Shown: one piece after another, positions 7,011 through 49,716 of the stretch
How the letters are laid out: each line of letters begins with the position of its first letter
Position numbering within the stretch: position 1 is the stretch's first letter
NCBI GenBank assembly: GCA_031291075.1
Contig: JARLJS010000061.1
Location: 1 to 52,470, forward strand
Length of the DNA stretch: 52,470 nt
Origin: Nevskia sp.
GTDB lineage: Bacteria > Pseudomonadota > Gammaproteobacteria > Nevskiales > Nevskiaceae
Direction of reading: 5' to 3'
Position numbers and translations under genes: made by a program
Notes under the pieces: model-generated
What the model was told of the DNA's origin: nothing
Seen by the model: the letters and a program-made list of their open reading frames with translations, nothing else
Databases searched by the model: none

Positions 7011-7928
7011 TCAGCCGGCCATGGCGGGTGCGGGCACGGTGACCGGCAGGCCCAGGTTGCGCCATAGACGCAAGGTCGGCTCGGCCTGGTTGATGGTATA
7101 GAAATGCAGCCCGGGCGCGCCTGCCTGCAGCAGGCGCTCACACAGCCGTGTCGCCACGTCGAGGCCGAAGTCCAGCAGTGCCGGCTTGTTGTCCTGCAGC
7201 TCCTCCAGCCGCAGCCGCACCCAGCGCGGCAGGTCGGCGCCGCAACTGGAGCAGAAGCGCACGATGTTCTGGTAGCCGGTGATCGGCATGATGCCGGGCA
7301 CCACCGGGATGTCCAGGCCGGCGCGGCCGCAGCGGTCGACGAAATCCAGGTAGGCGTCGGCGTTGTAGAACAGCTGGGTAAGGGCGCCGTCGGCGCCCGC
7401 TTCGACCTTGCGCCGGAAGTGCTCGAAGTCCTGCTCCGGACCGGAAGCCTGGGGGTGCATCTCCGGGTAGGCGGCCACCTCGATCTCGAAGGCGTCGCCG
7501 TGGGTCTCGCGGATGAAGCTGACCAACTCGTTGGCGTAGTGGAACTCGCCCGGCGCCGAAGCCGACATCGCGGTGGCCGGCAGATCGCCGCGCAGCGCCA
7601 CGATGCGCCGCACCCCGGCCTCGCGGTAGCGTTCCAGCAGGGCCGCGATGCTGGCGCGGGTGGAGCCGACGCAGGTCAGGTGCGGCGCCGCCTCCACGCC
7701 GGTCTGCTCGACCACGCGCACTACCGTCTCGTAGGTGCCGTCCTGGTTGGAGCCGCCGGCGCCGTAGGTGACGGAGAAGTAATCGGGCCGCACCTCCGCC
7801 AGCTGGCCCACCACCAGCGGCAGCTTGGCCACGCCTTCCGGCGTGCGCGGCGGGAACAGCTCGAAAGAGAACGTCAGCAGCCGGGAGGCGGGAGGCGGGA
7901 GGCGGGAGGCGACGGGATCGGTGGTCAT
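7011..7928 (-). CDS. metF: Methylenetetrahydrofolate reductase
   Basis: Reduces 5,10-methylene-THF to 5-methyl-THF with FAD, supplying methyl groups for methionine synthesis. About 305 residues. The family fold starts at TFSFELFPPRTPEG, with the conserved Glu at the barrel entrance. FSVTYGAGGS, the folate/FAD region RGDLP, the EIEVAAYPEMHPQA block and QLFYNAD are all recognisable. It is third in the metK-ahcY-metF order. The first residues after ATG 7928 are odd: the segment ASRLPPPASRL is encoded by a tandem heptamer array (7883-7910) and no good ribosome site precedes the ATG, so the native start may have been displaced. Confidence 0.93.
   Translation of the reverse strand: MTTDPVASRLPPPASRLLTFSFELFPPRTPEGVAKLPLVVGQLAEVRPDYFSVTYGAGGSNQDGTYETVVRVVEQTGVEAAPHLTCVGSTRASIAALLERYREAGVRRIVALRGDLPATAMSASAPGEFHYANELVSFIRETHGDAFEIEVAAYPEMHPQASGPEQDFEHFRRKVEAGADGALTQLFYNADAYLDFVDRCGRAGLDIPVVPGIMPITGYQNIVRFCSSCGADLPRWVRLRLEELQDNKPALLDFGLDVATRLCERLLQAGAPGLHFYTINQAEPTLRLWRNLGLPVTVPAPAMAG
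7883..7910. repeat. Four perfect tandem heptamers GGGAGGC inside the metF 5' end
   Basis: Units at 7883-7889, 7890-7896, 7897-7903 and 7904-7910 are identical (GCCTCCC on the coding strand). They encode part of the non-conserved N-terminus of MetF. Because 7 is not a multiple of 3, gain or loss of one unit would shift the frame of the start region. Related heptamers occur at 8008-8051, 30264-30340 and 42501-42528. Confidence 0.9.
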
Positions 7929-8007
7929 GTCGATGCGTTGCTCTTGAGCGCCCGCAAAGTCGTGGAGCGTCGAATCTGAGCGCAAGTCCGAACTTTCGTG
8001 ATCAGGG

Positions 8008-8051
8008 AGAGAGGCGGGAAGCACCACTTGGTGCCCCCGCCTTCCGCCTCA
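8008..8051. repeat. Heptamer-based hairpin between ahcY and metF
   Basis: The left arm has heptamers GAGAGGC and GGGAAGC; the right arm has GCCTTCC and GCCTCAC. Between them GGCGGG (8012-8017) pairs with CCCGCC (8035-8040), and GCACC pairs with GGTGC around a small loop. It ends just before the ahcY stop codon, so it lies in the ahcY-metF mRNA. It has the same logic as the larger element in rsmH. Confidence 0.7.
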
Positions 8052-8053
8052 CG

Positions 8054-17720: not shown

Positions 17721-17877
17721 GGGCGCTGCGCGCCCCTGCCGTGAGGTCGGCGGCTGCGCCGCCTGTGAGGAGTGAGGCCGCGCCTTCGGCGCTGTGAGGG
17801 GACAAGCGTTTCTCCTCACAGGAGCGCGCAGCGCTCCGACCTCACCGCCTCACAGCCCGCGTAGCGGGCGACCTCAC
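17721..17877. repeat. Modular inverted-end hairpin element, copy 1
   Basis: Begins right after the radC stop. A first hairpin (GGGCGC/GCGCCC, 17721-17735) precedes the core element 17741-17877, which has 9-bp inverted ends GTGAGGTCG and CGACCTCAC. Inside lie four GC hairpins: 17749-17763 (loop TGC), 17780-17792 (loop TTC), 17821-17837 (loop GCA) and 17855-17869 (loop GTA). The linkers TGTGAGGAGTGAGG on the left and CCTCAC-CGC-CTCACAG on the right are inverted relative to each other around a centre at about 17802-17812. Copies 2 and 3 are at 19725-19883 and 49568-49716. Confidence 0.85.
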
Positions 17878-19724: not shown

Positions 19725-19883
19725 GTGAGGTCGCAACCCCGGCCTGGGCCGGGGTTGCTGTGAGGAGTGAGGTCGGAGCGCTTGCGCTCCTGTGAGGTGC
19801 GACAGCAGGCCTCGCTTGTCTCCTTTACAGCGAGCGCTGCGAGCGACCTCACTCCTCACAGGGCGCGAAGCGCCAGACCTCAC
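19725..19883. repeat. Modular inverted-end hairpin element, copy 2
   Basis: Ends are GTGAGGTCG (19725-19733) and AGACCTCAC (19875-19883). Left hairpins are CAACCCCGGCC/GGCCGGGGTTG (19734-19757) and GGAGCGC/GCGCTCC (19775-19790). The right side holds CAGCG/CGCTG (19828-19839) within a GAGCG-rich module, and GGCGC-GAA-GCGCC (19862-19874). Linkers CTGTGAGGAGTGAGG and CCTCACTCCTCACAG are inverted around the centre. It fills the whole mtnD-mtnC gap, ending 5 bases before mtnC. Confidence 0.85.
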
Positions 19884-23677: not shown

Positions 23678-23761
23678 CAGTCCGCAAATGAACGCAAATG
23701 AACGCAAATGGAGAACCATTCAAGATTCTATTTACGTTTATTTGCGTCCATTTGCGGACTG
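23678..23761. repeat. GCAAATG-type hairpin repeat
   Basis: CAGTCCGCAAATG (23678-23690) and CATTTGCGGACTG (23749-23761) are perfect inverted ends. Tandem copies of AACGCAAATG fill the left arm and TTTATTTGCGTC the right. A T-run follows in the + direction. The stretch is strikingly AT-rich here and lies between the converging yrfG and rhlB genes, where it could terminate both. Confidence 0.88.
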
Positions 23762-28200: not shown

Positions 28201-28607
28201 GGGAGCCGGCCAGACAACCGCTGCCGCGCGCGTCCCAAAACGCGTGCGGGGGAGGAAAGTCCGGGCTCCGCAGGGCAGTGTGCCAGTTAACGGCTGGGCG
28301 GCGCGAGCCGACGGAAAGTGCCACAGAGAACGAACCGCCTAAGTCCGCAGCCGCGGGCCGGCAAGGGTGAAAAGGTGCGGTAAGAGCGCACCGCGTCCCT
28401 GGCAACAGGGGCGGCACGGAAAACCCCACACGGAGCAAGGCCAAATAGGGAAGGTGGGCTGAGGGCCGAAACGCCCTGGCCCGACGCGCGGCCCGCGCGC
28501 CTTCCGGGTAGGCTGCTGGAGGTGCCGGGTGACCGGCGCCCTAGAGGAATGGTTGTCGCGGCGGCGTGCGCGTCGTCGAACAGAACCCGGCTTATCGGCC
28601 GACTCCC
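28201..28607 (+). ncRNA. rnpB: RNase P RNA (type A)
   Basis: The catalytic RNA that matures tRNA 5' ends. The P1 strands GGGAG (28201) and CTCCC (28603-28607) define both ends. Universal core blocks are easy to read: GAGGAAAGTCCGGGCTCC, then GGGCAGTGTGCCAG, the ACAGAGAAC block, GGAGCAAGGCCAAATAGG, and near the 3' end AACAGAACCCGGCTTATCGG. Length of about 407 nt fits type A. The position upstream of mraZ matches Pseudomonas. Confidence 0.96.
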
Positions 28608-28620
28608 ACTTGAATTCATG

Positions 28621-49567: not shown

Positions 49568-49716
49568 GTGAGGTCGGGCGCTGGCGCGCCCTGTGAGTCG
49601 CGCCTTCGGCGCTGTGAGGGGTGAGGAGAAAAGCCGGGTTTCTTCCTCATAGCGAGCGCAGCGAGCGACCTCACTCCTCACAGCGAGCCCGGCGCAAGCC
49701 GGGGGAGCGACCTCAC
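49568..49716. repeat. Modular inverted-end hairpin element, copy 3
   Basis: Ends are GTGAGGTCG (49568-49576) and CGACCTCAC (49708-49716). Left hairpins are GGGCGC/GCGCCC (49576-49591) and GCGCC-TTC-GGCGC (49600-49612). The right side carries a GCGAGCG direct-repeat module (49653-49667) and CCCGGC-GCAA-GCCGGG (49688-49703). The centre pairs GAGGAGAAA with TTTCTTCCTC. It lies 4 bases after the M23 stop and 109 bases before secA. Confidence 0.85.

Follow-up and report, generated by a model that had tools for sequence, protein, structure and literature searches.

Three short intergenic sequences with inverted ends, rich in hairpins, raise the question of what kind of element lies between the protein genes of this Nevskia genome. 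The window (the whole 52,470-nt stretch that was analysed) belongs to a genome of 5.65 Mb in 302 contigs (G000), which was compared with other draft genomes. All three copies were found at the positions and with the inverted ends given for them in the original prediction. Copy 1 (17741–17877) lies in the gap between radC (+) and rpmB (+), copy 2 (19725–19883) between mtnD (ARD, +) and mtnC (HAD hydrolase, +), and copy 3 (49568–49716) between a peptidase M23 gene (+) and secA (+). No strand was assigned to the copies, and the neighbouring protein genes are co-directional in each case. At gathering thresholds, no Rfam family covered the element in a scan of the window. The sole Rfam match in the window was RNase P RNA class A (28202–28610).

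The element consists of a core and, on either side of it, an array of the 7-bp unit GTGAGGN, the two arrays being inverted with respect to each other, with GC hairpins between the units. The left arm is built of tandem heptamers, some followed by TC-hairpin-T ahead of the next GTGAGG. The right arm is the inverse, and the core typically reads (A/G)GACAAGC..GCTTGTC(T/C). A heptamer may stand empty, with N mostly A or G, or be filled by TC-hairpin-T. Arms therefore carry between 0 and 3 hairpins, and the two modules per half of the original prediction were not retained. Its inverted GTGAGGN linkers were recovered as tandem heptamers, except that the linker of copy 3 is degenerate (GTGAG-TCG). 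These linkers are the defining part of the element, which is an inverted heptamer array. Copy 1 was divided into a left arm (17741–17799), a core (17800–17813) and a right arm (17814–17877). Its plus-strand hairpins are GGCGGC-TGC-GCCGCC (17749–17763), present in the minus-strand fold, and GCGCC-TTC-GGCGC (17780–17792), recognized in both sequence and fold. The other modules were read from the sequence: on the minus strand of copy 1, right-arm hairpins of the GGAGCGC type (17820–17839) and the GCCCGC-TAC type (17854–17871); on the plus strand of copy 2, hairpins of the GCAACCCCGGCC type (19731–19759) and the GGAGCGC type (19773–19791); and on the minus strand, the right-arm module of copy 2 with its flanking heptamers (19854–19883) and the nested right-arm hairpin module of copy 3 with its own (49676–49716). 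Stems are GC-rich and of few types, and nested palindromes are present. The GCTCGC-type stems are imperfect palindromes with tandem G.A mismatches on the complementary strand (by eye).

To count copies, a strict module was defined as GTGAGGTC-N(10-40)-TGTGAGG, with the reversed pattern as control. The window holds 8 such modules, and none arose in 100 dinucleotide shuffles; the whole genome holds 80, against 0 matches to the reversed pattern. The genome-wide search proposed with the original prediction thus returned far more than a few further copies. The fetched stretches of G000 contained 44 two-armed elements and, under a looser definition, 52 clusters with at least one module, of which a few are spurious. 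The strict module was present in 4 of 58 family genomes, and a GTGAGGKCG-containing pattern in 7 of 85 order genomes, three of these by one match each. A genome of another genus (G052) carries 10 two-armed elements of regular build, with 2–4 modules per arm, mostly 3. A MITE, here of an unknown DNA transposon using GTGAGG ends, would share the inverted ends, the dispersal in dozens of copies and the patchy distribution. We consider this origin improbable: the copies are not near-identical, the heptamers arrayed at their ends vary in number, no transposase with such ends was noticed in the course of the analysis, and by eye the flanks showed no consistent target duplication (TGCC stands on both sides of copy 1, most other copies gave no match, and the relatives are too diverged for exact empty sites).

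Other repeats were noticed in the same genome. A second heptamer type, GTGAGAC, forms inverted arrays at L067:50-146, L071:7700-7884 and L034:7002-7161, and an inverted array with a 10-bp period (CGCAAATGAA) lies at 23683–23756 of the window. Constant flanks around a hairpin characterize two more families, one at L068:454 and L074:853 and 2114, the other, with seemingly variable stems, at L079:2933 and L075:15520-15660.

Reuse of hairpins among copies, as originally described, is real. The 39 perfectly paired 18-nt modules of the G000 genome fall into 7 stem types (11.7 expected under independent columns) and form 191 identical stem pairs (109 expected); neither value was matched in any of 2000 simulations with independent stem columns. 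Among 29 distinct 18-nt modules of G000, 88.5% of the cells at stem positions pair, compared with 68.7% when the arms were re-dealt (maximum 77% in 1000). In unit orientation the loop is TNC in 49 of 53 18-nt modules of this genome, which reads as GNA with a closing C-G pair on the complementary strand. DNA loops of the GNA type closed by C-G are unusually stable. Over 358 kb, perfect 6-bp hairpins with a 3-base TNC/GNA loop numbered 48 inside elements and 41 outside, and those with other 3-base loops 16 inside and 235 outside. RNA folding of copy 1 gave z −8.2 on one strand and −7.6 on the other; z was −7.0 for copy 2 minus its last 11 bases and −4.3 for copy 3, and none of 200 shuffles folded as well in each case. 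The minus-strand fold of copy 1 is the clearest rod with hairpins facing each other; in the plus-strand fold, the outer hairpins pair together instead. Hairpins in mirror slots are identical more often than expected in G052 (P 0.0002), and no such identity was found in G000 (P 0.86). Two related G052 elements (L096 and L098) have the same two kinds of slot-2 hairpin with the arms swapped.

Structures of this kind could also be kept by selection because they are useful to the host as bidirectional 3′ ends (a terminator substitute, an exonuclease block or an RNase III site). Covariation of the stems fits this explanation. So does the position of the outermost TGA: the outer GTGAGG supplies a TGA to a gene reading into the element, and with heuristic gene calls this was the neighbour's stop codon at +4 in 14 G000 genes, vs 1 at +11 and 3 at +18. 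Moreover, in place of the G000 element, intrinsic-terminator-like hairpins were seen by eye in relatives at mtnD-mtnC, at L075 element 1 and at dnaK-dnaJ. Against it, the core of none of the window copies is followed by the T-run of an intrinsic terminator (by eye), and the strict module is patchily distributed, in 4 of 58 family genomes. It would further require that the protein gene described below was captured by chance.

One element of G000, in the dnaK-dnaJ gap (L067:2241-2734), encloses a 121-aa ORF that matched PF05635 (23S_rRNA_IVP, E 1.7e-31) and also TIGR02436. PF05635 denotes the four-helix-bundle protein (S23/IVP) encoded in 23S rRNA intervening sequences. This element was too long to be counted among the 44 two-armed ones. 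In G052, the dnaK-dnaJ element likewise encloses an IVP gene, whereas the three window copies contain none. PF05635 was found in 15 of the 58 family genomes (19 matches) and in 77 of 369 class genomes. A 1.5-Mb genome (G406) has 11 matches, seven with identical E-values, which suggests that its IVP genes multiplied recently. Most IVP flanks in the family carry inverted heptamer arrays, with units such as GATAGTA, GGGAGAC, CAGTGGC, GGGAATC and GTGAGGC. Three junctions recur by eye, metF-ahcY (six loci), nuoI-nuoJ (four) and dnaK-dnaJ (two); gene names were checked for two only, dnaK-dnaJ of G000 from the appearance of the ORFs and metF-ahcY of the window with Pfam. At carA-carB there is a single IVP locus, where no array was detected. 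Genome G026 (86% complete) has arrays and gave no IVP match. Of seven GTGAGG-like IVP loci read in other genomes, six are without hairpin decoration and L303 may have one; such decoration is not a general IVP feature.

The window contains one more inverted heptamer array, without hairpins or assigned strand, in the metF/ahcY gap (7883–8052, genes identified by Pfam). Four GGGAGGC units occupy 7883–7910 and a degenerate inverse 8037–8052. By eye, the IVP loci of six other genomes sit at the same junction. The array resembles by eye one from which the IVP gene was deleted; this candidate was rejected, as the similarity of its interior to IVP genes was not significant in any of 10 comparisons against shuffles.

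The association of IVP genes with heptamers was measured by autocorrelation of the flanks, with a lag-7 threshold of at least 17/21. The fragment matches of G030 (L293/L294) were excluded. The class set comprised the best-scoring 30 loci of the search that matched 77 of 369 genomes and therefore leans to intact genes. In the family set, 9 of 17 IVP loci passed the threshold vs 0 of 15 controls, and none did at lags 5, 6 and 8–12. In the class set, 23 of the 30 best-scoring loci passed vs 1 of 24 controls, with 0 or 1 at the same other lags. The loci below threshold thus numbered 8/17 and 7/30. An inverted match above the control maximum was obtained for 14 of 17 family loci (at L279 the best match is outside the array) and for 26 of the 30 best-scoring class loci; L282 and L290 gave neither signal. 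At the 31 of 47 loci where both arms could be scored, the two arms agree in their unit. Their mean distance was 1.19 within a locus and 3.27 between loci (0 of 5000 permutations), and 3.61 when arms were compared in direct orientation.

Dispersed arrays were then considered in 800 kb sampled from ten IVP genomes. Nine were found in three genomes and none in the other seven. Their distance to the IVP unit of their own genome was 0 in six, 1 in one and 2 in two (mean 0.56, vs 2.68 to the units of others), and two of the nine are no closer to their own unit than to some others. In these few cases, dispersed arrays share the unit of the local IVP. Identity between IVP proteins was correlated with heptamer distance (Mantel r −0.311, 0/5000, 39 loci), and this similarity may reflect common descent rather than recognition. 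The protein comparison was made without L292, L310 and L301, which lacked a clean frame or a motif, and the Mantel test without L282, L290, L314, L320 and L321 (no unit scoring at least 15); for L286, the unit used in the Mantel test was supplied manually.

Relatives of IVP were detected in 31 plasmid records, of which 12 were examined; no match was obtained in phages. Lag-7 autocorrelation was at least 16 in 9 of the 12 named plasmid loci, a set scored without control flanks. The other three (L368, L371, L376; Gemmatirosa, Picosynechococcus, Leptolyngbya) have 8-periodic inverted arrays, with a lag-8 value of 16–21 of 21 in the better arm. IVP genes with inverted heptamer arrays thus occur on named cyanobacterial plasmids too. 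The IVP gene lies between two ribonucleotide reductase genes, in opposite orientation, in Nostoc edaphicum, between cas6 and cas4 in Anabaena 90, and between cas10 and a cmr3-family gene in Picosynechococcus. Since arrays accompany IVP genes in many genomes as well as on these plasmids, chance capture is unlikely, and selection of a host-useful 3′-end structure is in our opinion a rather unlikely explanation of the element.

The IVP gene also bears on whether the element is of the REP/BIME type, moved by a RAYT (Y1) transposase. Both systems combine a short conserved head motif 5′ of a GC hairpin, an inverted unit order and few protein genes with many dispersed copies, and four Y1 matches were found in the genome. 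However, the protein of REP/BIME is a Y1 transposase and IVP a four-helix bundle, and the local Y1 genes have other hairpins: three of the four Y1 matches of G000 (L086, L087, L089) have GTAGGGCGGG hairpins on their flanks. A GTGAGG cluster adjoins none of the four, and only 0–2 single GTGAGG/CCTCAC words lie within 900 bp. RAYT was therefore rejected as the mover, and a REP/BIME origin appears very improbable. The GTAGGGCGGG hairpins around these three Y1 genes are themselves a RAYT/REP-like arrangement. The original prediction, which had set the element apart from an ordinary REP, is supported in this and in its module exchange and structural constraint. The first of these two is supported by the few stem types, the L096/L098 arm swap and a flipped element described below, the second by stem covariation and folding (z −4.3 to −8.2). 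It had missed the linkers as the defining part and the copy enclosing IVP.

Twelve G000 elements were compared with the same junctions in G026, G012 and G022. Eleven could be read in G026, whose contig ends at radC-rpmB and leaves the site of copy 1 unreadable. An array was present at four junctions and absent from six, and one was ambiguous. Two of the four arrays retain GTGAGG, one upstream of recN and one at L067:974, where the hairpins are other ones; at L075:13319 and dnaK-dnaJ, GGGAGGC replaces it. A thirteenth, hairpin-free site carries GTGAGAC in G000 but GGGAGGC in G026, and is contiguous in G012 and G022. Hairpins and heptamers have thus changed at shared junctions. In G012 and G022, no full element was found at the sites read across (L067:974 was unreadable in both, L075 element 1 in G012 and L071:3955 in G022). 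A short GTGAGG..CCTCAC piece is present in G012 at L075:13884. At mtnD-mtnC, G012, G022 and G026 have the terminator-like hairpin instead of copy 2 (by eye). In their M23-secA gap (L154, L155, L156) there is a different repeat, a TGACAAGC-flanked hairpin with a variable stem.

The element upstream of recN (gene name by eye) has the same hairpin type and core in G000 and G026, on opposite arms. The alignment score of the whole element was 66.5 flipped vs 20.5 unflipped; for the core, 0 of 2000 shuffles did as well flipped, and P was 0.059 unflipped. The interior of the element is thus flipped between the two genomes. A tree of five coding pieces (one missing in G026) grouped G026 with G012 and G022 with a support of 100. 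The idea that G000 and G026 share junctions as sister genomes is unsupported, and the shared junctions must result from ancestral presence with losses or from repeated insertion.

The arrays could also arise by mutation alone, with heptamer slippage and palindrome-templated repair making and copying them and no element behind them. The free variation of unit number, the nested palindromes and the few GC-rich stem types are all compatible with such a process. It does not lead one to expect that inverted arms have the same unit, that arrays are placed around IVP genes or that junctions are shared, and by eye inverted arrays occur at metF-ahcY in different genera. There is little chance, in our view, that mutation alone accounts for the element.

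Among known systems, the closest are the 23S intervening sequences (PF05635, TIGR02436), for which the available sections of PMC4990558 likewise describe an IVP gene between inverted repeats, heptamers before the gene, a sporadic distribution and a long RNA stem. For the example of Coxiella burnetii, they report a terminal stem of 28 bp, heptamers in tandem ahead of the S23p gene, and cleavage by RNase III in vitro (same sections of PMC4990558). The terminal inverted repeats of the window copies can also form a long stem. Intervening sequences are located in 23S rRNA; the elements of this study are between protein genes, and the window copies were therefore not classed with them. Most copies here also differ in having no IVP gene and hairpins between the units, and their cutting by RNase III is putative. 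Heptamers of the GGGNATC type, mostly intergenic and near stop codons, are known from Xanthomonas and Nostoc, with 70 convergent inverted pairs in Xcc and 75 in Xac; they are generally not associated with mobile elements, and IVP is unmentioned in the passages at hand (Rehm 2015, PMC4692102). As in that class, the tandem 7-bp units form convergent inverted intergenic pairs. The GTGAGGN element departs from the heptamers as those passages present them in its hairpins between units and in its constant word, which has at most GG, GGG arising only where N = G, and which thus offers no G3 tract for a G-quadruplex. BOX-type intergenic elements are modular and hairpin-forming with a variable unit number, and have no inverted heptamer arms or IVP. 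On the protein side, Avd of diversity-generating retroelements belongs to a family related to IVP: according to the part of PMC10053308 at hand, Avd (4DWL) is homologous to the PF05635 structure 2GSC, whose source is Xanthomonas campestris by a title cited there. The solved IVP structure 2gsc is XCC0516. A CRISPR survey also names the 23S rRNA IVP domain, in one of its figure legends (PMC10910872). No link of IVP to heptamer arrays between protein genes was found in a literature search that had preprints and most subscription journals outside its range.

Taken together, the window copies are probably IVP-less members of an element made of IVP and inverted heptamers, here decorated with exchangeable hairpins. 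The full form would be an S23/IVP gene (PF05635) between inverted 7-bp arrays in an intergenic gap, and the reduced form the inverted arrays and core only. In a read-through transcript, pairing of the two arms may form a long rod of double-stranded RNA from which the hairpins project sideways. RNase III would cut this rod as it does in 23S intervening sequences; the messages on either side would then be detached from each other and the insertion would do no harm. The hairpins between units would add side arms, or may only be tolerated. The arrays would be kept alike, and the hairpins relocated and swapped, by inversion and by strand exchange among arms and copies: arms in inverted orientation permit flips, which together with exchange between copies would produce the shuffled hairpins. 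More speculatively, the IVP protein might recognize the heptamer and take part in the spread or upkeep of the arrays; this is the weakest step. No movement of the element was seen, and its mobility is putative.

A wider reading, which we put forward tentatively and hold for somewhat less likely than its opposite, is a system like RAYT/REP built on another protein. A low-copy IVP and its own inverted heptamer 'address' would spread or be maintained across phyla in gene gaps and, excised as RNA, in 23S rRNA. Heptamer and protein would co-evolve, and the arrays would be rewritten in concert in each lineage.

These results suggest that two long-puzzling features of bacterial genomes belong together, namely the 7-letter arrays and the IVP element, which is small, little understood and seen chiefly within ribosomal RNA genes. 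IVP/S23 proteins are widespread, as their presence in the class indicates, and structurally solved; heptamer arrays have been listed in bacteria with no cause assigned to them. To our knowledge, IVP/S23 proteins have no known function, and we know of no nuclease or recombinase activity for them. Through the link, the protein gains a candidate target, one that varies from species to species, and the arrays gain a candidate source. If true, fragmentation of 23S rRNA would be one case of a general intergenic element, and the IVP genes found in cas and nrd operons would be insertions, not operon members.
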